DNA of 64,000 bases from positions 1,426,001 through 1,490,000 of the forward strand of contig NZ_CP094974.1 in the NCBI RefSeq assembly GCF_022869805.1. Reading direction: 5' to 3'. The position numbers and the translations under genes were made by a program. The stretch is from Halosolutus halophilus (GTDB lineage: Archaea > Halobacteriota > Halobacteria > Halobacteriales > Natrialbaceae). The notes beneath the pieces were generated by a model. That model saw nothing but the letters and a program-made list of their open reading frames with translations, was not told the origin of the DNA and searched no databases. Shown piece by piece: positions 18,478-46,862 of this stretch (positions within the stretch are counted from its first letter, which is position 1; each line of letters opens with the position of its first letter).

Positions 18478-19098
18478 ATGTCCCATCGAAGACTCGATCG
18501 ACGGACGTTCGTCGCTGCGGCAGGTACAGCAAGTGCGCTCGTTCTCGCCGGGTGTGCAAACGACACGGAAGGGGAAGGCGGTCCCGGCGAAGGTGAAAAC
18601 GGAGGTGACGGTAACGACACCGGCACGGAAGACGGGAACGAAACCGAAGACGGTGCAGCTGGCGGCGAGGCGATCAGCCCGGACGACGAGATCGAACTCG
18701 GCGCCGAGGTCCAGGCCTGGCAGGGCCAGGCACCCGACCAGATCGCCGACCAGGAGAACCCGACGCTCGTCCTCCAGGAGGGCGAAGCCTACAGCTTCAC
18801 GTGGGAGAACCTCGACGGCCAGACGCACAACCTCGAAATCGTCGACGAGAACGACGAGGTCGTCGACGACTACTCGACCGACACGATGGGCGAGCAAGGC
18901 GAGACCCAGACCCTCGAGGTCGACGAGATCACCAGCGAGATGGCCGAGTACGTCTGTCGACCACACGAAAGCACGATGCGCGGTACGATCGAAGTCGAAA
19001 GCGGCGGCGGCATGGGCGAAGACGGTAACGAAACCGAGGACGGCAACGAAACCATGGACGGAAACGAGAGCGAAGACGGTAACGAGTCCGAGGACTGA
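18478..19098 (+). CDS. Halocyanin-like cupredoxin lipoprotein
   Basis: A 206-residue exported blue-copper protein. The Tat signal is RRLDRRTFVAAAG followed by the lipobox LAGC. A D/G/E-rich linker leads to a single plastocyanin-type domain. The copper ligands are His in GQTHNLEI and Cys, His and Met in YVCRPHESTMRG. Halocyanins are membrane-anchored electron carriers replacing cytochrome c in haloarchaeal respiration, so this is a possible donor for the CuA protein at 37.1 kb. The C-terminus ends in EDGNET-type hexapeptide repeats encoded by an 18-bp tandem repeat. Confidence 0.88.
   Translation: MSHRRLDRRTFVAAAGTASALVLAGCANDTEGEGGPGEGENGGDGNDTGTEDGNETEDGAAGGEAISPDDEIELGAEVQAWQGQAPDQIADQENPTLVLQEGEAYSFTWENLDGQTHNLEIVDENDEVVDDYSTDTMGEQGETQTLEVDEITSEMAEYVCRPHESTMRGTIEVESGGGMGEDGNETEDGNETMDGNESEDGNESED
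19018..19095 (+). repeat. 18-bp tandem repeat encoding EDGNET units
   Basis: There are four units plus a partial one, encoding EDGNET-EDGNET-MDGNES-EDGNES-ED, at the end of the halocyanin-like gene. Units differ mainly at silent positions. The tail is acidic and probably unstructured. Confidence 0.7.
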
Positions 19099-36273: not shown

Positions 36274-36717
36274 CTATCGATCCTCGATCGCGTCACCCCC
36301 GATCTGGTCGGTCGGGTCACGTGATTCGTCGACCATTGCGCGGAGGTGTTCGAGCAGGAGTCCGACGCCGTCGGGCTTGAACCAGGTCGTGACTGCGCCC
36401 TCCGCTTCGACCTCATCGTGGACGCGCTCCTCGTCGCGAACCGGAATCGACAGCTCGACCGGTTGATCGAAGCGGTCCTCGTTTTCCTCGACCAGGTAGG
36501 TCACCTCCTCGAGTTCGCGGCGGACGTACTCGAACGGATCCATCGACTCGGTGTCGTCCGAGATGACGAACCGGCGAGTTCGCCCGTCGTCCAGTGTCAC
36601 TCTGACGACGCCCTCCTCGATACGATCCTCTTCGAGATACTCGGTCAGAACGGTCTCGAAGAAGTCGGTCGTCATCCGGTCCCCTCGCGGTTTCGACTCC
36701 GAGTGATCCGGCGCCAT
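36274..36717 (-). CDS. Conserved hypothetical acidic protein
   Basis: A 147-residue cytoplasmic protein: MTTDFFETVLTEYLEEDRIEEGVVRVTLDDGRTRRFVISDD, then VELSIPVRDEERVHDEVEAEGAVTTWF. No known domain. The TATA box at about 36737-36744 lies roughly 23 nt before ATG 36717, favouring that start over the internal ATG at 36675. It is divergent from the CuA-d1 operon, but with 400 bp between them. Confidence 0.6.
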   Translation of the reverse strand: MAPDHSESKPRGDRMTTDFFETVLTEYLEEDRIEEGVVRVTLDDGRTRRFVISDDTESMDPFEYVRRELEEVTYLVEENEDRFDQPVELSIPVRDEERVHDEVEAEGAVTTWFKPDGVGLLLEHLRAMVDESRDPTDQIGGDAIEDR

Positions 36718-36745: not shown

Positions 36746-37121
36746 GACTGTACCGGCGAATCCTATGCACTGGGAAGCGCCCCGGACTGCCGCGCCGAGC
36801 GGGGACTTCGGTGGCGTGGCCCGCCACTGCCACCAACGTGGAACCGCCGACCGGACCGATCGCTGGACGTCCCGGTCGTTGGAAGTCGGTGACCGAACGC
36901 GCTGGTGACGTCGCGGCTATCGGTGAGGCGATCAGCGTCGGTGTCCGTGGTGGCCGCGGCAGTCGCCCCGACCCGCATCCGTTTCCCCTCGAAATCGTCG
37001 CTGGATCTCCGAGGTAAAAATCCTCATGCGAACATCTTCCACCCATTTCTCGCAAACTCGAAACGTCCGTCTCCCGTTTTGGAGGGGGGTTCGGTATTAC
37101 CACGTGCCGAGGGGGCCGAAA
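36746..37121. other. Upstream region of the CuA-d1 operon
   Basis: About 375 bp without an accepted gene. The last 65 bp carry the operon promoter and an inverted repeat (separate entry). An AT tract AGGTAAAAATCCTC lies near 37013-37026. Confidence 0.5.
37059..37098 (+). promoter_or_regulatory. Inverted repeat plus TATA box of the CuA-d1 operon
   Basis: CGAAACG (37059-37065) and CGTTTTG (37075-37081) form a 6-of-7 inverted repeat spaced by 9 bp. It ends about 11 bp upstream of the TATA-like GTATTAC (37094-37100 region). The TATA box lies about 25 nt before ATG 37122, so the operon is probably leaderless. A palindrome just upstream of TATA/BRE is the usual place for an archaeal activator site. 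The regulator is unknown. Confidence 0.4.
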
Positions 37122-38942
37122 ATGACACAACCCAAGTCCGCGGCTACGTCGATGGAGGACCACGAGGAACGGATCAAGCGCCACTTGAGCGCTTCGAGAG
37201 AGATCGCGAAGAACCTGGATTTCGACGACGAGTTGAGCTTCGAGATGGGATTGCCGAGTCCGGGTCGTCGGACGTTTCTGAAGACCAGCGGCGTTGTGGC
37301 TGCGTCGGCGGCGCTTGCCGGCTGTGGGGATCAAACGGGGCAGAGTACGCCGTCGGATGACGACGAAGACTCGGGAACGCCGGAGGCGGAGCAGAGCGAG
37401 ACGGTTCAACTGGAGGCCCATCAGTACGAGTTCCAGCCCCAGGAGATCCGGGTCCCGCCGAACACGGAGCTGACGATCGAGTTCACGAAGTCGACCTTCG
37501 AGAAGGCCTCGGACTTCGCGCTCCACTCGTTCTACCTCGAGGACCCGTACGATATTGGCCCCATCGAGTTGCCCGAAAGCACCGACGACGAGGCGTTCGA
37601 CTCGGTCACGTTCGTCACCGATGAAGAGGGGACCTTCGACTTCGAGTGTTCGGTCTACTGTGGCGACGGACACGCCCAGATGAACGGTCAGCTGTACGTC
37701 GTTCCCGAGGGCGAATCCGTCGACGAGGTGGACTTCACGGACATGGAGACGCTGAAAGAGCGTCACGAGATCCTCAAAGAAGAGAGCGAGTTGGCCCAGG
37801 AGCCACAGCACGACCTCGACCTGCGGGATATCATGGTCGTCACCGAACGCAACAACGGGTCGGTGGCGATGATCGACACGGTCAACGACGAGTTCCTGGA
37901 GCGGGTCGAGAACGTGGGGAAGGCGATCCACGTTCACGACTTCCATCCCGAACTGCCCGAGCAGACGCGCGAAGGCGCGTACGTGTACACGCAGTCGCGG
38001 CAGGGAGAGATGTACAAGATCGACCTGTTCGACTTCGAACGGGTCGCCGTGGCCGACGCCGGGACGGACGCCCGGGACATCGCGGTCTCCCGGGACGGTG
38101 ACTACGTGATCGGCGGGTTCTACAACCCAAACCACCTGGTCATCTGTGACGCCGACACGATGGAGCCGCTCAAGCGGATCCCGACCCATACCGTCAATCC
38201 CGACGGCGAGAGCCTCGGTAGCCGCGTCTGCTCGCTGTACGACGTCCCGGAGGAAGGGCTCTTCCTCGCCGGCCTCAAGGAGGGCGGCGAGGTGTGGCTC
38301 ATCGACTACACCCAGGACGACTTCCCGGTCGTGGCGACCATCGAGTGTGGTCGAACCCTTCACGACGGGTTCTTCACGGAGGACGGACGCTACTTCATGA
38401 TCGCCTCCCAGACGGACAACCAGATGGACATCGTCGACACCCAGAAGCGGGAACACGCCGCCGCGATCCCGATGGATGCGGTTCCACACCCGGGGCCGGG
38501 CGCGCTGTACCCGGACGAGGACCTCGCGTTCACGACGCACGCCGGTGCACCGAGCGTCGGCGTCTGGGACACGAACACGTGGGAGGCCGAGGAGATGATC
38601 GACGTCAGAGGCTCCGGCCTGTTCATCCGAAAACACGAGAACAGCGACTACGTCTGGGCCGATGTCATCCTCACCGACACCGAGGACGACGCGTACGTCT
38701 ACACGATCGATCCAAACACCCTCGAGGTCGACCAGGAGATCGACTGCAGCCAGTGGGGTGCTGACGCCGCGATTCATCCGGAGTTCAGCCGTGACGGCGA
38801 GAAAGTGTACATCAGCGTCTGGCAGGGTGACAACGAATCGATCCTCGTGTTCGATCCGAACACGGGCGAACTGCTGACCCAGATCGAGGATCTGCTGGCA
38901 CCGACCGGGAAATTCCTCGGCGTCCGCGCGGAGGGACACTAA
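37122..38942 (+). CDS. CuA-cupredoxin / cytochrome d1 fusion protein, putative nitrite reductase
   Basis: A 606-residue lipoprotein. A 48-residue cytoplasmic lead precedes a Tat signal (GRRTFLKTSG, Arg49-Arg50) and lipobox LAGC (Cys68). Residues about 92-195 form a cupredoxin with a full CuA site: His135 in ALHSFYL, then Cys176, Cys180, His184 and Met187 in CSVYCGDGHAQM. Residues about 230-605 form a d1-heme propeller of the NirS type. His414 (TLHDG) and His456 (VPHPG) match the two distal catalytic histidines, with His270 or a neighbour as the likely axial ligand; LLAPTGKF near the end also matches NirS. Classical NirS has a cytochrome c domain where CuA stands here. Nitrite reduction to NO outside the membrane is inferred. 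Confidence 0.85.
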   Translation: MTQPKSAATSMEDHEERIKRHLSASREIAKNLDFDDELSFEMGLPSPGRRTFLKTSGVVAASAALAGCGDQTGQSTPSDDDEDSGTPEAEQSETVQLEAHQYEFQPQEIRVPPNTELTIEFTKSTFEKASDFALHSFYLEDPYDIGPIELPESTDDEAFDSVTFVTDEEGTFDFECSVYCGDGHAQMNGQLYVVPEGESVDEVDFTDMETLKERHEILKEESELAQEPQHDLDLRDIMVVTERNNGSVAMIDTVNDEFLERVENVGKAIHVHDFHPELPEQTREGAYVYTQSRQGEMYKIDLFDFERVAVADAGTDARDIAVSRDGDYVIGGFYNPNHLVICDADTMEPLKRIPTHTVNPDGESLGSRVCSLYDVPEEGLFLAGLKEGGEVWLIDYTQDDFPVVATIECGRTLHDGFFTEDGRYFMIASQTDNQMDIVDTQKREHAAAIPMDAVPHPGPGALYPDEDLAFTTHAGAPSVGVWDTNTWEAEEMIDVRGSGLFIRKHENSDYVWADVILTDTEDDAYVYTIDPNTLEVDQEIDCSQWGADAAIHPEFSRDGEKVYISVWQGDNESILVFDPNTGELLTQIEDLLAPTGKFLGVRAEGH

Positions 38943-38973: not shown

Positions 38974-40128
38974 ATGTCAAACACCCATTCCGACGCGATC
39001 GGGGCCGAAACCCGACGAGCCCCGCGTCCGCTCGCCCTCGTCAAGCACCTCCGCGGAGAGGGGTTCACGGCGATCGACGCGGGGAGACACGAGCCGCTCA
39101 GCCGAGTCGGGGAGGGGCGTCAGCCTCACGCGCTCGCAGTCCATCCCGGCGGACGCTGGGCGTACGTCCCCTACATGGCGTCGAACGCGCTGGAGGTCGT
39201 CGATCTCCGGACGCTCACCGTCGCGGATCGCGTCGAGGGGGTCGCCACTGCGCCGGTGGGAGCGGTCCTGACCCGAACCGGACGGTATCTGTTCGTCAGC
39301 ACCTACGGCGGCCTTCCGGGGAACGATCGACCAGGACTGGCCGTCTTCCGGACGGACGACGAGCGAGTCACGCCCGTCGCGGAAGTCCCGATCGGAAAGG
39401 CAGCCGGCCTCACGGTCGACGCCCGGAACGACCTCTGGGTCGCACTGAAGGACGCCGACGAGGTTATCCGCGTCTCCGGGACGCCACCGTTCGAGGAACG
39501 CGGTCGGTTCGAGGTCGCCGGCGGTCCACAGGATCTGGTGTACGAACCGGCCTACGGGCTGTTGGGCGTGAACAACGTCGACGCGGGGAGCGTGACGTTC
39601 GTGGACGTACTCGAAGCGTCGGTTCTCGGATCGGTTCCGGCTCCGAATCCGCGAGGGGGAACGGCCGTTCCGGCCAGCGACCGGTGGTTCGTCGGGAACA
39701 CCGACGGTGACGGCGTCACGGCGGTCGACGTGGACGCGGTTCGACGCGGCGACACCGATTCGACGGCGATCGAGCACGTCCCGCTCGGAACGGCCACCGC
39801 GTTCACCGACGCGACGCCCGACGGGGCGCTGGTCGCCGTCGACGCGTACGACGACGACCGCGTCACGTTCCTCGAGCCGGCGGCCCTCGAGATACTCGCG
39901 AGAGTCGAGACCGGCCCGACGCCGCGTCATCCGCGGTTCAGCGCGGACGGTCGGGTCTGTTACGTCCCCAGCGTCGACGACGACGCGGTGACCGTCGTCG
40001 ACGTCGACGCGATCCGCTCGAACGCCGACGCGCCCCGATTCGATCCCGACCACGACCCGATCGTAACCAGCATCGACGTGCCCGACGGGGCCGGGCCCGC
40101 TGGCTGTTTCCGTACCGACAGAGGGTGA
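38974..40128 (+). CDS. YncE/NirF-like beta-propeller protein, copy 1
   Basis: A 384-residue seven-bladed propeller-type protein with repeated VEVVDLRTL/TFVDVLEA/VTVVDVDA blade edges. There is no signal peptide, so it is probably cytoplasmic. It is 31 nt downstream of the CuA-d1 gene and overlaps the next gene by 4 bp. NirF, the d1-like propeller required for heme d1 synthesis, is the closest functional analogue by context. Residues that would bind the tetrapyrrole are not obvious beyond several His (PHALAVHPGG, TPRHPRF). It is clearly paralogous to copy 2. Confidence 0.75.
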   Translation: MSNTHSDAIGAETRRAPRPLALVKHLRGEGFTAIDAGRHEPLSRVGEGRQPHALAVHPGGRWAYVPYMASNALEVVDLRTLTVADRVEGVATAPVGAVLTRTGRYLFVSTYGGLPGNDRPGLAVFRTDDERVTPVAEVPIGKAAGLTVDARNDLWVALKDADEVIRVSGTPPFEERGRFEVAGGPQDLVYEPAYGLLGVNNVDAGSVTFVDVLEASVLGSVPAPNPRGGTAVPASDRWFVGNTDGDGVTAVDVDAVRRGDTDSTAIEHVPLGTATAFTDATPDGALVAVDAYDDDRVTFLEPAALEILARVETGPTPRHPRFSADGRVCYVPSVDDDAVTVVDVDAIRSNADAPRFDPDHDPIVTSIDVPDGAGPAGCFRTDRG

Positions 40129-41276
40129 TACCCATGACTTTCGATACCAACACCGTATCCGCCGAAACCGACCGCTCGTCCCGGACACCGACGATCGTAA
40201 AGAACGCTGCAAGCAGCCACTTCAGTGCGGTCGACCTCGACGGCGGCGAAGTCCTCGCACGGGTCGGCGAGGGGCGGTACCCGCACGCGGTGCTGTTCCA
40301 CCCGGACGCGCCCGTCGCGTATCTCCTGTACATCTCGAGTGCCCACGTAGAGGTGCTCGATCTCGAGCGGCTGGAAACGGTTCAACGCGTCGACGGACTC
40401 GGAACGATGCCCGTCGGGAGCGCACTCGGTTCCGACGGCGACTTGCTCTTCGTCGGCACCGCCGTGGACCTGCCGGAGGCGTCCGACCCCGGCGTCCTGG
40501 CGTTCGCGATCGGCGACGACGGCCGACTCGAGCCGGTGGGCACACGACCGCTCTCCCGAAGTTCCGGTATGCGAATCGGGCCGGACGATCGGCTGTACGT
40601 AGGCCAGAAGACCGAGAACGAGGTCCTCGCGCTCGGGGCCGACGTCGAGATGGGGGTCGACGCCCGGATCCCCGTCGGCGCGGAGCCACACGACCTCTAC
40701 GTGCTCGCGGACGACGGGCTGGTGGTCGTCAACCACGCTGGCGGATCGTCCGCCTCGTTCGTCGATTCGGACGCGGATCGGATCCGCTGTACCGCCGAGA
40801 CGGGGACGAACCCGCACGGCTTCGCCGTCGCGGACGGCCCCGGCTATCGGTACGGACTCTTCCCGGCCCGCGAGGACGAACGGGTCGCCGTCGTCGATCT
40901 CGAGGCGGTCGCGGCCGGCGAGGAGTCGCCGACGGAAGCGTTGATCGACGTCGGAACGGCGACCGGCTTCGCCGCGGTGACGCCGGACGGCCGCTACGCG
41001 ATCGTCGACTCCTACGAGGAACCGTTCGTGACGATCCTGGACCTGGCTGACCTGTCGGTCGCCGGTCGCGTCGAGGTCGGTGGGGAACCGCTCCACGTCG
41101 TCTTCGGACCGAGGGGGGAGGAGTGTTACGTCGGGAACATGGAGCGAACCGACCTCGCGGTGCTCGACACCCGGCCGCTCGCCGACGATCGGCCGGCGGA
41201 CGTGACGGTCGGCCGGCGAATCGACGGACTCGGTGAGAAGCCAAGCGGTATCTTCCGCCCGGAGGTGGACCAATGA
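40125..41276 (+). CDS. YncE/NirF-like beta-propeller protein, copy 2
   Basis: A 380-383-residue propeller protein starting at GTG 40125 (GTGA overlap with copy 1) or ATG 40134. Blade motifs parallel those of copy 1: VGEGRYPHAVLFHPDAP, HVEVLDLERLETVQRVDGL, MPVGSALGSDGDLLFVGT. This shows tandem duplication followed by divergence. There is no signal peptide. Its stop overlaps the NirJ-type gene by 4 bp. I infer a role in heme d1 assembly or in holding a d1 intermediate; a lactonase-like or chaperone role is an alternative. Confidence 0.75.
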   Translation: MIPMTFDTNTVSAETDRSSRTPTIVKNAASSHFSAVDLDGGEVLARVGEGRYPHAVLFHPDAPVAYLLYISSAHVEVLDLERLETVQRVDGLGTMPVGSALGSDGDLLFVGTAVDLPEASDPGVLAFAIGDDGRLEPVGTRPLSRSSGMRIGPDDRLYVGQKTENEVLALGADVEMGVDARIPVGAEPHDLYVLADDGLVVVNHAGGSSASFVDSDADRIRCTAETGTNPHGFAVADGPGYRYGLFPAREDERVAVVDLEAVAAGEESPTEALIDVGTATGFAAVTPDGRYAIVDSYEEPFVTILDLADLSVAGRVEVGGEPLHVVFGPRGEECYVGNMERTDLAVLDTRPLADDRPADVTVGRRIDGLGEKPSGIFRPEVDQ

Positions 41277-42493
41277 TCGACCTGACACGCCTTATCAGAG
41301 GACTCGACAATCGCCCGGAACAGATCCGCTACGAAAAGCGTCACACGAGGGATGCGCTCGTCCCGCTGGTCGTCTGGAACACGACGCCTGCGTGCAATCT
41401 GCGGTGCAAGCACTGCTACTTCGGGGCCTGTGACGAGCGCGACAGCGAGGAGCTGTCGACGGCCGAAGCCAGGGCGTTCATCGACTCCCTGGCCGAAATG
41501 GACGTGCCGGTACTCGTGTTCAGCGGCGGTGAGCCGTTCTTCCGCGACGACCTCGCCGAACTCACCCGGTACGCGGCGGAGCAGGGCCTGCGTCCGATCG
41601 CCTCGAGCAACGGCACGTTCCTGACCGAGGAGCGCGCCCGGGCAGCGGCCGACGCCGGGATGCAGTACGTCGGCGTCTCGCTGGACGGCATCGGGGCGAC
41701 CAACGACGAGTTCCGCGGCGTCGAAGGAGCGTTCGAACGGGCTCGCGACGGGCTCCGAAACGCCCGCGACGCCGGAATGGGGACGGGGATCCGGTGTACG
41801 ATGACCGAGGGAACCGTCGACGACGTCCCTGCGGTGATCGACCTCGCCGTCGAGGAGGGGATCGACCGCGTCAACGTCTTCCACCTCATTTACTCCGGCC
41901 GCGGCGGCGACATCACCGACGCCGACCTCGAGTTCGAACGCACTCGAGAGATGCTCGAGTACCTCTACGAGCGCACCAAAGAACTCGCCGAGACCAATCC
42001 CGACATGCAGATCCTGACCGCCGGCAATTATGCCGACGCGGTCTATCTCTACCACCGCATTCGGGAGGACACGCCGGAGCACGCCGATCGGGCCCGGGAC
42101 CTCCTGTTCGACGACGGGCCCGGTCGCGTCGTAAAGAACGGCGACGCCGGCCCGAAGGTGGTCAACGTCGACCATCGCGGCGACGTCCACCCGAGCATGT
42201 TCCTCTCACAGTACACCCTCGGGAACGTTCGAAACCGGCGGCTCGACGAGATCCTCGCCGAAAGCGATCTCTGGGACCAGCTGGCCGAACCGTCCGGACG
42301 GCTGACCGGTCGATGCGGACGGTGTCCGTGGAAGGAGGTCTGTGGCGGGAACTCCCGTGCCCGCGCCGCTGCAGTGCACGACGACCTCTGGGCCGAGGAT
42401 CCGCGGTGTTACCTCACCGACGCCGAGCTGGGTATGGACGAACGGCGAACCGACCACGCGCCCACGATCGACGTTCCAGTCACGATCGACTAG
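41273..42493 (+). CDS. nirJ: NirJ-type radical SAM/SPASM protein
   Basis: A 406-residue radical SAM enzyme. The AdoMet cluster motif is Cys41-x3-Cys45-x2-Cys48 in PACNLRCKHCYF, followed by FSGGEPFFRDDL. The C-terminal auxiliary-cluster motif has Cys348, Cys351, Cys357 and Cys379 (CGRCPWKEVCGGNSRARA and DPRCYL). This matches NirJ/AhbC more closely than peptide-modifying SPASM enzymes. NirJ removes propionate side chains during heme d1 synthesis, while AhbC acts in the alternative heme pathway. The d1-type gene in the same operon favours NirJ. It overlaps the upstream gene by 4 bp and ends 4 nt before the hemA-like gene. Confidence 0.85.
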   Translation: MIDLTRLIRGLDNRPEQIRYEKRHTRDALVPLVVWNTTPACNLRCKHCYFGACDERDSEELSTAEARAFIDSLAEMDVPVLVFSGGEPFFRDDLAELTRYAAEQGLRPIASSNGTFLTEERARAAADAGMQYVGVSLDGIGATNDEFRGVEGAFERARDGLRNARDAGMGTGIRCTMTEGTVDDVPAVIDLAVEEGIDRVNVFHLIYSGRGGDITDADLEFERTREMLEYLYERTKELAETNPDMQILTAGNYADAVYLYHRIREDTPEHADRARDLLFDDGPGRVVKNGDAGPKVVNVDHRGDVHPSMFLSQYTLGNVRNRRLDEILAESDLWDQLAEPSGRLTGRCGRCPWKEVCGGNSRARAAAVHDDLWAEDPRCYLTDAELGMDERRTDHAPTIDVPVTID

Positions 42494-42497
42494 ACCG

Positions 42498-43796
42498 ATG
42501 CACGCTCCCAACTCGGCGCCAACCGACCTGCAAGCCGACCCCGTCCCGGCGAGGGCGGTCCCGAAGAGCGTTCGGCGACTCGCGTGTTGCCGAATTAGCC
42601 ACGGAACTCACTCGACGGACGAACTGGGGGCGATCGCGCCGGACGACACACTCGCGCTCGCCCGTCGGATCAAGCGGCACGATCGCGTCACCGAGGCGGT
42701 CGTCCTTGCGACGTGTAACCGGGTCGAGGTGTATTTCAGTACTCGCACTCCGGCCGATCGGGACGCGGCGCTCCGCGTCGCGCGTGAGGCGCTCGGCACT
42801 TGCGAGACCGTCAAGACGGAGACGGGGCTCGACGTCGTCGAACACCTGACGCGCGTCGCCTGCGGTCTCGACAGCAAGGTGCTCGGTGAGGATCACGTCC
42901 TGGGGCAGGTCCGTCGAACGTTCGAGGCGGCGCTCGAGGAGGGGCTCGCCGGCGGCGTGTTGACGCGCGCAGCGGATACGGCGGTCTCGGTGGGTCGGAC
43001 CTGCCGCGACGAGACCGAAATCAACGAGGGACGCGTCAGCTACGGGAGCGCGACCTGCGAGATCATCGCGGACCACGTCGGTTCTCCGTCCCGTCTCGTC
43101 GTCGTCGGCGCGGGAGAGATGGCGACCTCGGTCGCGAACGCGGCCGCTCATCGATGGGACGGCCGCGTCGACGTCGTCAATCGGACGACTGCGCCAGGGC
43201 TTCCCACCGGGGACGGTCGGTACTGGCCGCTCGACGACCTCGAGTCCGCGCTGGTCGAGGCCGACGCGGTCGTGACGGCGACGGGCGCAGCGGACCCGGT
43301 ACTGACCCCCGAGACGGCGGCGGGCGTCGGGAGTGACACGCTGATCGTGGATCTGGCGACCCCTCCGGACGTCGCCGGCACCGTTCGCGAGTCGGCCATT
43401 CCGGTGGTGGATCTCGACGCGGTGCAAGACCGGATCGACGATGCCGTCGCGGGCCGGAAGGAGGCGGTACCGGCGGTCGAGGACGCGGTTGCCGATGCCG
43501 TCGAGACCTTCGTCGACCGGGAGCGCGAGAACCGCGCGGAGGATACGCTCCGTGCGTTACATCGCACCGCGGCAGCGATTCGAGAGACGGAACTCGAACG
43601 GGCGCGAGCGCGCCTCGAAAACGGGGAGGACGACCCCGAGACCGTGCTGGAGGACTTCGCCAGCGGGCTGACTGCCGCGCTGCTCGGGTCGCCCACCGAA
43701 CGACTTCGGACGGCCGCACGCAACGGTGACGATGCGGTCATCGAAGCCACACACCGGCTGTTCGAACTCGACGCGTCCCTCGAGGAACCGGAGTAA
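42498..43796 (+). CDS. hemA: Glutamyl-tRNA reductase (divergent, operon-specific copy)
   Basis: A 432-residue GluTR, which makes glutamate-1-semialdehyde, the first step of tetrapyrrole synthesis. The nucleophile is Cys73 in VLATCNRVEVYF. GLDSKVLGEDHVLGQVRRTFEAA is the conserved substrate-binding segment, VVVGAGEMATSVA the NADPH site, and the C-terminal part is a helical dimerisation domain. Its position in the d1 operon suggests a dedicated or extra copy boosting precursor supply; whether the genome has another hemA cannot be seen here. The region KSVRRLACCRISHGTHSTDEL replaces the more usual N-terminus. Confidence 0.88.
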   Translation: MHAPNSAPTDLQADPVPARAVPKSVRRLACCRISHGTHSTDELGAIAPDDTLALARRIKRHDRVTEAVVLATCNRVEVYFSTRTPADRDAALRVAREALGTCETVKTETGLDVVEHLTRVACGLDSKVLGEDHVLGQVRRTFEAALEEGLAGGVLTRAADTAVSVGRTCRDETEINEGRVSYGSATCEIIADHVGSPSRLVVVGAGEMATSVANAAAHRWDGRVDVVNRTTAPGLPTGDGRYWPLDDLESALVEADAVVTATGAADPVLTPETAAGVGSDTLIVDLATPPDVAGTVRESAIPVVDLDAVQDRIDDAVAGRKEAVPAVEDAVADAVETFVDRERENRAEDTLRALHRTAAAIRETELERARARLENGEDDPETVLEDFASGLTAALLGSPTERLRTAARNGDDAVIEATHRLFELDASLEEPE

Positions 43797-44169
43797 CTCG
43801 GCGTACGAGTCGAGTCCCCCGGCTCCGGCCCCGTTGGGCCGTCGTACCCTTCGCGTTACAACCGCGTTCGAGACGGGACGCGGTGACCGACGACGCGATC
43901 CGGGGCCGACGCTGCCAGCGCGACCGGCGGTCGATTAAGGGATCGTTCCGCTTCCATATCGATCCGTCGCCCGATCTGGACGGCTACCCGGCATCGGTCG
44001 GCGGCGACGTCTGCGACCGACCGATCGGCCGAAACGGGATCCCGTTACGCCGTGGGTACGCTCCCGAGATGGGACGGCAGACGCAGGGGCAGGTAAGCAC
44101 TTGTGGTTATGTTCCTGGGGAATAAGGATCGAAAGTAGTTATATTTGTGTCCCCGTTCGAACTGCGAGC
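43797..44169. other. Spacer between hemA-like gene and the Mo/W transporter
   Basis: A 373-bp spacer. An 80-codon frame starting GTG 43883 has no family look and is not accepted. A GC hairpin (CGGCCCCGTTGGGCCG, near 43827-43842) could terminate the operon. The promoter of the next gene occupies the last 35 bp. Confidence 0.5.
44138..44146 (+). promoter_or_regulatory. TATA box of the Mo/W transporter genes
   Basis: GTTATATTT lies about 25 nt before ATG 44170, giving a leaderless transcript. This also decides the start against the longer frame from 44101. Confidence 0.6.
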
Positions 44170-45114
44170 ATGGACACAGACGCCGGCCCGGCGACCCGCC
44201 ACGGCCGTCGGGCCGTACTGGCCACCGTGGGAAGCGCGACGACGGGGCTCGTCGGCGGGTGTCTCGGGGCCGAAGACGATCGCGTCCGAGTGCTCGCCGC
44301 GGGCAGCCTCGCCGTCGTCCTCGAGGAACACGTGGGACCAGCCTTCGAGGACGACACCGGGATCCGGTACGAGGGCGAGTACCACGGCTCGAACGCCGTC
44401 GTGCGAATGATCGAGGAACCGACCAAACATCCCGACGTCGTGATCAGTGCGGACGTCGACCTCCTCCGGGAGCGACTCTATCCCGATCACGCCGACTGGG
44501 ACGTCGAGTTCGCCGCCAACGCCGTCGGCATCGCCTACGACCCGCGGACTGACGTCGGCGACCGATTGGCCGACGGGGAGCCGTGGTACGAGGTGCTCGC
44601 GGACGCGGATCCCGGCGAGGTGGCGATCAGCGATCCGGACCTGGACCCACTCGGGTATCGCGCGGTTCTGCTCTTCGAACTCGCCGAGCGCGAGCACGAC
44701 CTCGAGGGGTTCCGCGCGTCGATGGTCGATCGGGTCTATCGCGAGCCGAGCGAATCCGCGTTGCTCGCGGGCATCGAGGCCGGAGACCGGGCCTGTGCAG
44801 TGTGTTACCGGAACATGGCCGTCGACCACGACCTGCCGTTTCTCGCGTTGCCCGACGCGTACAACTTCTCGAATCCCGTGTACGCAGACCGGTACGAACA
44901 GGTGACGTATACGACCGCGGACGGCTACACCGCGACCGGGTCGCCGATCGTTTACAACGCGACGGTCCGGACCGATGCCGACCGGCCGGAGGCCGGCCGG
45001 ACGTTCGTCGACTATCTCCTGGAGGACGCCGACGTGCTCGCCGAACACGGATTACAAGTGCCGGACGCGCTTCCCCGCCGTCACGGTGAGCCACCGGAGG
45101 GACTCGGCGGATGA
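44170..45114 (+). CDS. Molybdate/tungstate-type ABC solute-binding lipoprotein
   Basis: A 314-residue binding protein of the WtpA/ModA type. The signal has an Arg pair (HGRRAVLATVG) and a lipobox VGGC. The mature part starts VRVLAAGSLAVVLEEHVGPAFEDDTGI and has GEYHGSNAVVRMI, KHPDVVISADV, and VAISDPDLDPLGYRA, where the oxyanion-binding loops lie. Molybdate and tungstate feed molybdopterin enzymes such as nitrate reductase. It overlaps the permease gene by 4 bp. No ATPase gene follows. Confidence 0.88.
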   Translation: MDTDAGPATRHGRRAVLATVGSATTGLVGGCLGAEDDRVRVLAAGSLAVVLEEHVGPAFEDDTGIRYEGEYHGSNAVVRMIEEPTKHPDVVISADVDLLRERLYPDHADWDVEFAANAVGIAYDPRTDVGDRLADGEPWYEVLADADPGEVAISDPDLDPLGYRAVLLFELAEREHDLEGFRASMVDRVYREPSESALLAGIEAGDRACAVCYRNMAVDHDLPFLALPDAYNFSNPVYADRYEQVTYTTADGYTATGSPIVYNATVRTDADRPEAGRTFVDYLLEDADVLAEHGLQVPDALPRRHGEPPEGLGG

Positions 45115-46055
45115 CCGGTAGAACCCCATCCGGCGACGGCGATCGCGATCCCGGTCTGTCGCGCTCCCGTGACTCGACCGGTGGTGCCACTGGGTCTCGT
45201 AACGTGACCAGCAGGCGCCCTCGGTCCCGTGGCACTCCCAGCGGCGAGAGCGGCCACACGAGTCGGGTCGGGGCCGCGCTCGATCGCGTCACGAGCCCAC
45301 GCGCCGTGCCCGTGCTGCTCGGGACGGTCCTGCTCGCGTACTTCGTGGTCCCGTTCGTCGCCTTCTTCGGCCAGGTGCGATCGGTCGACGTCGTCGGCGG
45401 ACTCGCGGAGCCGTCGACACAGGAGGCCATCAGGACCTCGCTCGTGACCGCACCGATCGCGACGGTCATCTCGACGGTCTTCGGCGTCCCGCTCGCCTAC
45501 GTCCTCTCGCGTGGCACCTTTCGGGGCAAACGGCTGGTCGAAGCCGCCGTCCTGTTGCCGCTCGTGGTCCCGCCGATCGTCGGTGGGGTCATGTTGCTGA
45601 CCGTCCTCGGCCGGTACGCGCCGATCGGGGCGGCGGCCGCCGCGTTCGGGATCCCACTGACCGGGAGCCGGGCCGGCGTGATACTCGCCCAGACCTTCGT
45701 CGCCGCGCCGTTTCTCGTGGTCAGCGCGCGGGCTGGCTTCGACGGCGTCGACGAACGTCTCGAGGAGGCCGCCCGGACGCTGGGCTACGGCCCGGTCGAG
45801 ACGGCGTGGTCCGTCTCGTTGCCGCTCGCTCGAAACGCCATCGCTGCCGGGATGGTCCTGACGTTCGTCCGCGCCATCGGCGAGTTCGGGGCGACGATGA
45901 TGGTCGCCTACAACCCGCGAACGATGCCGACGCGGATCGAAGTGTTGCGGATCTCGCAGGGCCTCGACGCGATCGTGCCGATCGCGCTGGCGTTGCTCGC
46001 GATTGCGCTGGTCGTCGGCTGCCTCGTCCAGTTCCTCGGAACGCCCAGCCGGTAG
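45111..46055 (+). CDS. Molybdate/tungstate-type ABC permease
   Basis: A 314-residue permease. The first 60 residues are hydrophilic, rich in Arg, Ser and Gly, and unusual for ModB/WtpB. About six membrane segments follow. The EAA coupling loop is visible as VDERLEEAARTLGYGPVETAWSVSLPLA. Segments such as LPLVVPPIVGGVMLLTVLGRYAPIG match the family. It overlaps the binding-protein gene (ATGA). The ATP-binding subunit expected next is absent; the following gene is a regulator. Confidence 0.88.
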   Translation: MTGRTPSGDGDRDPGLSRSRDSTGGATGSRNVTSRRPRSRGTPSGESGHTSRVGAALDRVTSPRAVPVLLGTVLLAYFVVPFVAFFGQVRSVDVVGGLAEPSTQEAIRTSLVTAPIATVISTVFGVPLAYVLSRGTFRGKRLVEAAVLLPLVVPPIVGGVMLLTVLGRYAPIGAAAAAFGIPLTGSRAGVILAQTFVAAPFLVVSARAGFDGVDERLEEAARTLGYGPVETAWSVSLPLARNAIAAGMVLTFVRAIGEFGATMMVAYNPRTMPTRIEVLRISQGLDAIVPIALALLAIALVVGCLVQFLGTPSR

Positions 46056-46193: not shown

Positions 46194-46862
46194 ATGACCT
46201 CAATCGCAGACATCGAGATTCCGGCCGACGGAACGGGTATGGGCGAGCTGTTCGAGTCCATCCCATCGCTCACGTGCGAGATGGAACGAGTCATCGCATC
46301 GAAAGGCCACGGCCTGTGGCTGGCTGGCGCATCGCAGTCGGAGATCGAGGACGGTCTCGACGAGGCGTCGGCGATCGGCGACTTCGCGCTGATCAGCGAG
46401 GACGAGGATCGCTGGTTGTACGACATCGAGTTCGATCCCGAGACACTCGACATCTTCGAGGTCGTCCTCGAGGAAGACGGAACGGTACTGAGCGCCTCGG
46501 CCTCGAACGGGACGTGGCTGCTGAGCATCCGGTTCACCGACCGCGAGGGCGTGAGTTCGCTCTACGATCGACTCGTCGACCAGGACGTCACGCCGACGAT
46601 CGTTCGCCTGTTCGACATGACGGAGGAGAGCCACTCCCAGTGTGGGCTCACCTCCCGCCAGTACGAGACGCTGGTCGCGGCGATCGATCACGGCTACTTC
46701 GAGATCCCGCGCGAGGTCTCGATGCAGGAACTCTCGGAGGAACTCGACATCTCCCACCAGGCGCTCTCGGAACGGCTCCGCCGCGCCTACCGGGCGCTCG
46801 TGACCTCCGAACTCAACGTCTCCGAAGAGGAAACGACTGCACCACCGATCCCGTCGAACTGA
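46194..46862 (+). CDS. Bat-type (HTH_10) transcriptional regulator
   Basis: A 222-residue regulator with the bacterioopsin-activator helix-turn-helix at the C-terminus (LTSRQYETLVAAIDHGYFEIPREVSMQELSEELDISHQALSERLRRAYRAL). The N-terminal region (TCEMERVIASKGHGLWLAGAS and on) is a sensor-like module without the multi-cysteine cluster of NarO-type regulators. It lies just past the Mo/W transporter and 2.4 kb from the d1 operon, so control of either is plausible but unproven. The upstream spacer has an AT-rich tract with CTACTAATCC near 46134-46143. Confidence 0.85.
   Translation: MTSIADIEIPADGTGMGELFESIPSLTCEMERVIASKGHGLWLAGASQSEIEDGLDEASAIGDFALISEDEDRWLYDIEFDPETLDIFEVVLEEDGTVLSASASNGTWLLSIRFTDREGVSSLYDRLVDQDVTPTIVRLFDMTEESHSQCGLTSRQYETLVAAIDHGYFEIPREVSMQELSEELDISHQALSERLRRAYRALVTSELNVSEEETTAPPIPSN

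Follow-up and report, generated by a model that had tools for sequence, protein, structure and literature searches.

Halosolutus halophilus probably encodes a NirS-type, NO-forming nitrite reductase in which a CuA cupredoxin domain stands in place of the heme c entry domain, and which is carried in addition to NirK. The gene, here called CuA-d1, was found in a stretch of 64,000 nt (the window; contig NZ_CP094974.1, positions 1,426,001–1,490,000 of the forward strand), within which all coordinates are given. It occupies 37122..38942 on the plus strand and encodes a Tat lipoprotein of 606 aa. The coordinates, frame and residue numbers of the original prediction were correct. An in-frame ATG was present upstream at 37026, but in an alignment of haloarchaeal proteins the similarity of homologues started only at 37122. 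Since heme c is absent and the clade was not placed inside NirS, the label cytochrome cd1 was withheld; CuA-d1 is probably a new variant that works like cytochrome cd1.

The protein begins with a conserved region of approximately 48 residues ahead of the Tat motif (37122..37265, plus strand; …EERIKRHLSASREIA…FEMG…P.P), in which several residues were invariant in the alignment. This region is unusually long and well kept for a signal n-region and contains invariant charged residues, where a cofactor-insertion chaperone may dock. The twin-arginine signal (37266..37325, plus strand; RRTFLKTSG; PF10518 TAT_signal, 5e-5; TIGR01409) follows and ends in the lipobox Cys68. Downstream on the same strand lie the CuA cupredoxin module (residues 89–206; 37386..37739), a linker homologous to the NirS segment after the heme c domain (residues 208–232; 37743..37817) and an eight-bladed heme d1 propeller (37818..38921).

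The propeller matched the Pfam profile PF02239 (Cytochrom_D1) over residues 233–600 with an E-value of 1.2e-76 (258 bits, cut-off 25.5). In a PDB sequence search, the d1 part matched NirS (1e-39, 140 bits), NirN (1e-38, 136 bits) and NirF (1e-28). Alignment to NirS of Pseudomonas aeruginosa (1bl9) placed the proximal His270 on His182, the distal His414 and His456 on His327 and His369, and Arg243 on Arg156; the C-terminal PTGKF was common to both proteins. The profile match and the alignment, both proposed as checks in the original prediction, thus bear out a d1 domain with both distal histidines and the PTGKF end, and add the proximal histidine that had been left out. The position of the distal His327 was occupied by His in all NirS and all haloarchaeal d1 proteins examined, by Asp in bacterial NirN and by Tyr in bacterial NirF. 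Judged by this residue, CuA-d1 is of the NirS type. The full-length model matched the folds of NirS (Z 45.5), NirN (Z 44.7) and NirF (Z 38.8), so the fold alone does not tell NirS from NirN.

The N-terminal domain has a complete CuA ligand set and is a predicted two-copper electron entry site. Searched alone against PDB sequences, it matched the CuA domain of the Thermus thermophilus ba3 oxidase (E 5.8e-5), and the His, both Cys, the second His and the Met were in register with T. thermophilus CuA domains; with the full-length query, the N-terminal part matched CuA subunits of ba3-type oxidase. The ligand spacing (His135, C176-x3-C180-x3-H184-x2-M187) was invariant in the haloarchaeal homologues, and C-x3-C-x3-H-x2-M occurred only once among all stop-to-stop frames of at least 80 aa in the window. 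The register, the single motif and its conservation all agree with the ligand set first read from the gene. NCBIfam profiles of the CoxB and NosZ CuA domains gave weak matches to residues ~90–197. The structural model of the module was all-beta but of too low a quality (pLDDT 70) to bear out a cupredoxin fold: NosZ and NirK cupredoxins (Z 7–8) were mixed with unrelated folds among the matches (Z 7–9 overall), and a Foldseek search with this model alone gave no match under 1e-3.

No CxxCH heme c site was present in any of nine haloarchaeal CuA-d1 proteins. Conversely, every bacterial NirS and NirN examined had one N-terminal CxxCH and lacked the CuA motif. Matches to NirS set in at residue 208, within the linker that follows the c domain; an exchange of the entry domain at one boundary would produce this pattern. 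The match to NirN started at residue 224, and the segment 208–223 was common to CuA-d1 and NirS. Together with the three retained histidines, the distribution of CxxCH and CuA motifs corroborates the proposal of a CuA module instead of a cytochrome c domain on a NirS-type propeller.

A survey of 392 haloarchaeal genomes identified full-length CuA-d1 in 15, from six genera. One scan returned nine related loci, eight of them haloarchaeal (Natrinema, Halorubrum, Natronomonas) and one bacterial NirS-like. The CuA motif and the three d1 histidines were kept in nine haloarchaeal proteins from two clades, down to approximately 48% identity; the second clade (loci L037–L040, ~48% identity) retained all ligands. 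The same architecture and gene order in eight independent contigs excluded a chance motif or an assembly artefact. No further CuA-d1 was found in the same phylum outside the haloarchaea; other phyla were covered by plasmid records and a single scan of genome contigs. One genome assigned to the same phylum (G683) contained a canonical bacterial-type cytochrome c NirS (L087; G683:C1:3132892-3133851), and the adjoining frames look bacterial, so its assignment may be in question or the genome contaminated.

In the phylogeny, the haloarchaeal d1 proteins formed a clade of their own (support 99/100) beside NirS, NirN and NirF. Placement of this clade as sister to NirS received a support of only 54/49, and topology tests gave p-AU values of 0.097 for union with NirN and 0.489 for union with NirF; nesting with the Ruegeria-type NirS clade was rejected (p 0.03). 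By phylogeny, CuA-d1 is a fourth d1 lineage that does not fall demonstrably inside NirS. A d1 paralogue of approximately 420 aa, with the three histidines but lacking both CuA module and signal, was encoded at a separate locus in eight of the 15 carriers and never in genomes without CuA-d1. Copies include L041 (9037-10368), L042 (9022-10347), L043 (9454-10737), L044 (9469-10794), L048 (9541-10923) and L078; the last lies on plasmid CP031304.1, where it is unannotated. Because the paralogue branched within the CuA-d1 clade (96/95), its lack of the CuA module is probably due to loss; it is possibly a d1 maturation enzyme.

CuA-d1 heads a conserved operon apparently devoted to heme d1 synthesis. 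It is followed on the plus strand by two small propeller proteins, both without a signal peptide, with weak PF02239 matches and regarded as candidate d1 maturation factors: propeller 1 (38974..40128) has an invariant His52 in GRxPH, and propeller 2 (40125..41276; ATG at 40137) an invariant His54 in YPH. Next come a NirJ/AhbC-like radical SAM/SPASM enzyme with CxxxCxxC (41273..42493), distinct from the canonical AhbC-like and AhbD-like copies of the genome, and a second glutamyl-tRNA reductase, a hemA paralogue (42498..43796), whose frame is open from 42342 with a likely start at ATG 42498. All eight related haloarchaeal loci kept this sequence of five genes, and divergent loci largely did so. 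On the minus strand, CuA-d1 is adjoined by a divergently oriented gene (36274..36717) for an acidic protein of 147 aa without a Pfam match; Natrinema and Halorubrum retain it at this site, and it was not seen in Natronomonas. Downstream of the operon, a molybdate/tungstate-type substrate-binding protein and an ABC permease (44101-46055) were also present in L010 and not seen in the other related loci. A BAT/HTH_10 regulator of the bacterio-opsin activator type (46194-46862) is located close to the operon.

The radical SAM protein scored between the NirJ and AhbC models and under every cut-off (NirJ, 338 bits; cut-off 515); neither scores nor a tree decided its assignment to one of them. The canonical AhbC-like gene (above the cut-off of the haloarchaeal TIGR04347) and the AhbD-like gene are located elsewhere, as is a better-scoring hemA near an AhbA/B-type gene. 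AhbA/B-type siroheme decarboxylases were limited to the usual two proteins, encoded outside the operon. No NirF or NirD/L/G/H was recognised in the operon at family cut-offs. The small propellers resembled YncE or S-layer YVTN propellers as much as d1 proteins, and their assignment to NirF failed in a PDB sequence search, where the best match was an S-layer YVTN protein and NirF reached only 0.0035. In both, the sequence around the invariant His (G-x-x-PH) recalls that at the proximal His of d1 proteins. We infer that the two small propellers are counterparts of NirF and NirN. CuA-d1 is the only strong d1 protein in this genome and would therefore be the user of heme d1 if the operon makes it.

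In three genomes of one genus group (L038–L040), the other side of CuA-d1 is occupied by SCO1/SenC (6.6e-16 in L039), a CuA subunit II and a heme-copper subunit I. A TlpA-like redoxin is also present in L038, and a heavy-metal P-type ATPase in L039. The loop of subunit I reads HGTQQ, and Gln at the Tyr position is reported to mark archaeal eNOR (PMC8756737, Table A4), a CuA-type NO reductase that also occurs in Chloroflexi. A Natrinema genome (G214, L050) encoded an eNOR-type pair, a redoxin and a heavy-metal ATPase approximately 6 kb from CuA-d1, so that eNOR-type genes and copper or thiol maturation genes occurred near CuA-d1 in four genomes. In H. halophilus, two eNOR-type gene pairs are located at distant sites, one of them 110 kb away. 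A second eNOR-like subunit I of this genome (L064; G000:C1:3436297-3438018) has GHSTQQ rather than GHGTQQ and is 66% identical to the L039 copy. Across the 392 genomes, an eNOR-like subunit was found in 14/15 CuA-d1 carriers and 55/377 others (Fisher p 1e-10, which ignores kinship); within one genus, the counts were 7/8 carriers and 4/11 others (p 0.04).

A role of CuA-d1 as a stand-in for NirK was ruled out, since this genome and nearly all other carriers (13–14 of 15) have NirK too. The CuA-d1 protein itself gave no match to the NCBIfam model of NirK (TIGR02376); NirK is encoded separately in this genome, as is a NosZ homologue (541 bits). A halocyanin-like blue copper protein with signal peptide and lipobox (18478-19098; PF00127, 9e-9) lies 18 kb upstream of CuA-d1; although its gene is unlinked, it is a candidate electron donor.

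Several other functions have to be weighed against a CuA-fed nitrite reductase. As a heme d1 maturation enzyme, CuA-d1 would be a counterpart of the dihydro-heme d1 dehydrogenase NirN, with CuA as the electron acceptor. Its match to NirN nearly equals that to NirS in bits and fold Z, grouping with NirN was retained in the topology tests, and CuA-d1 heads the d1-synthesis-like operon. We nevertheless consider this role quite unlikely: the distal His of NirS and CuA-d1 is replaced by Asp in bacterial NirN, CuA-d1 lacks CxxCH, the linker segment shared with NirS precedes the start of the NirN match, and neither this genome nor six other carriers had another strong d1 protein, leaving nothing to mature. 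Identity with NirF was disfavoured as well, since bacterial NirF has Tyr at the His327 position, where CuA-d1 has His414, and CuA-d1 has a CuA domain. The combination of CuA and a beta-propeller is also the architecture of nitrous oxide reductases (NosZ, L-NosZ). Profiles of NosZ and of clade III L-NosZ matched the CuA module (that of L037 at 8e-18 to L-NosZ 375-479) and, weakly, the propeller. However, the scores were far below the curated cut-offs (48 bits against 700 for L-NosZ), the propeller is a PF02239 domain at 1e-76 with d1 histidines, CuA is N-terminal in CuA-d1 and C-terminal in NosZ, and the genome has its separate NosZ homologue. On scores, domain order and d1 histidines, an N2O reductase was rejected, and a relationship of this kind is exceedingly improbable.

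The N-terminal domain could also hold a degenerate CuA site without binuclear copper and be merely structural, in line with its modest sequence match to CuA domains (5.8e-5) and the poor fold model. This is very unlikely, as all five side-chain ligands were conserved across two clades that share ~48% identity and differ in much else, and SCO1/SenC adjoins CuA-d1 in three loci. Bacterial cytochrome cd1 also reduces oxygen and hydroxylamine, and a d1 enzyme might accordingly act on another substrate or in another role, handling oxygen, hydroxylamine or NO, or detoxifying nitrite or NO rather than respiring. The presence of NirK in nearly all carriers leaves room for such a role. We regard it as rather unlikely, given that all NirS active-site histidines were kept, that NO reductase and copper maturation genes adjoin CuA-d1 in four genomes and that nirK and nirS are carried together by bacteria as well (PMC6167111). 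With NirK in most carriers, a second nitrite reductase would not be strictly needed, which counts against our preferred assignment of CuA-d1 as a NirS-type nitrite reductase.

If CuA-d1 is such a nitrite reductase, the folded protein would be exported by Tat and lipid-anchored on the outer face of the membrane. A small blue copper protein (halocyanin) or a different membrane donor would give single electrons to CuA, which would pass them to heme d1, where nitrite would be bound under His414 and His456 and reduced to NO. The NO would go to the eNOR-type NO reductase, itself fed through a CuA subunit. For cofactor supply, the second HemA would raise the tetrapyrrole flow, the shared AhbA/AhbB proteins would provide didecarboxysiroheme, the operon radical SAM enzyme would act as NirJ, and the two cytoplasmic propellers would do the work of NirF and NirN before export. 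Chances are about even that these parts form a c-heme-free chain from nitrite to N2O, in which blue copper carriers deliver electrons through CuA both to a d1 nitrite reductase and to eNOR, and in which heme d1 is made with two cytoplasmic propellers and Tat export in place of the periplasmic NirF, NirN and NirD/L/G/H.

NirS serves as a marker gene for denitrification. In the original prediction, haloarchaeal denitrification was said to be described through NirK; this agrees with one study that found only NirK in haloarchaea (PMC8400030), but not with the NirS-like genes already catalogued in two others (PMC10999283, PMC11052009). As described in the main text of PMC10999283, a NirS-like clade of Halobacteriota lacks the cytochrome c domain and was for that reason left out of nirS counts, while Table 6 of PMC11052009 includes 21 haloarchaeal genomes in which nirK and nirS occur together. 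That table shares Natrinema, Halorubrum salipaludis WN019, H. amylolyticum ZC67 and Natronomonas sp. LN261 with the CuA-d1 carriers, and the NirS-like genes of the two studies are almost certainly the same genes as CuA-d1. The main texts of PMC10999283 and PMC11052009 do not mention the CuA domain, the operon or a link to NO reductase, and CuA-d1 probably represents a kind of denitrification enzyme that had not been described before. If confirmed, it would mean that the entry module is swappable and would offer a natural test of how heme d1 is supplied with electrons when heme c is missing. Accounts of haloarchaeal denitrification would need correcting too, both for the finding of NirK only (PMC8400030) and for the exclusion from nirS counts (PMC10999283). 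The operon would represent a small, apparently cytoplasmic archaeal route to heme d1 and would allow the roles of its two unassigned propellers to be tested directly.

Compared with known systems, CuA-d1 shares the eight-bladed propeller, His182/His327/His369, the post-entry linker and PTGKF with NirS of P. aeruginosa and Paracoccus pantotrophus. In contrast to their N-terminal cytochrome c with CxxCH, it has CuA, is a Tat lipoprotein and belongs to a separate d1 lineage. The closest bacterial relatives found were NirS of Aliiroseovarius, Ruegeria sp. B32 and Thiodiazotropha (37–39% identity over residues 208–598), which keep His at 270, 338, 414, 456, 473, 505 and 552 (CuA-d1 numbering). Unlike CuA-d1, these proteins have cytochrome c and are encoded in a full nir operon with NirF, NirD/L/G/H, NirJ and NirN, together with NirT and a blue copper protein. 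The nirS on a Thermus thermophilus plasmid (L077, 7656-10475) has just a cytochrome and a single radical SAM gene of the TIGR04053 family beside it, and NirF, NirN and NirD/L/G/H are absent from the stretch shown. The C1-C2-NirS of Chloroflexi bears an extra N-terminal cupredoxin/plastocyanin domain and keeps its heme c domains (PMC8756737); a copper domain and NirS are thus joined in one ORF in both cases, whereas CuA-d1 lacks heme c and its copper site is CuA. The eNOR, with CuA subunit II and an HGTQQ subunit I, corresponds to the gene pair near CuA-d1 and is a separate enzyme and proposed partner. The CuA domains of ba3 cytochrome oxidase subunit II and NosZ have the same His … Cys-x3-Cys-x3-His-x2-Met set in a cupredoxin-like sequence, but in CuA-d1 this domain is joined N-terminally to a d1 propeller.
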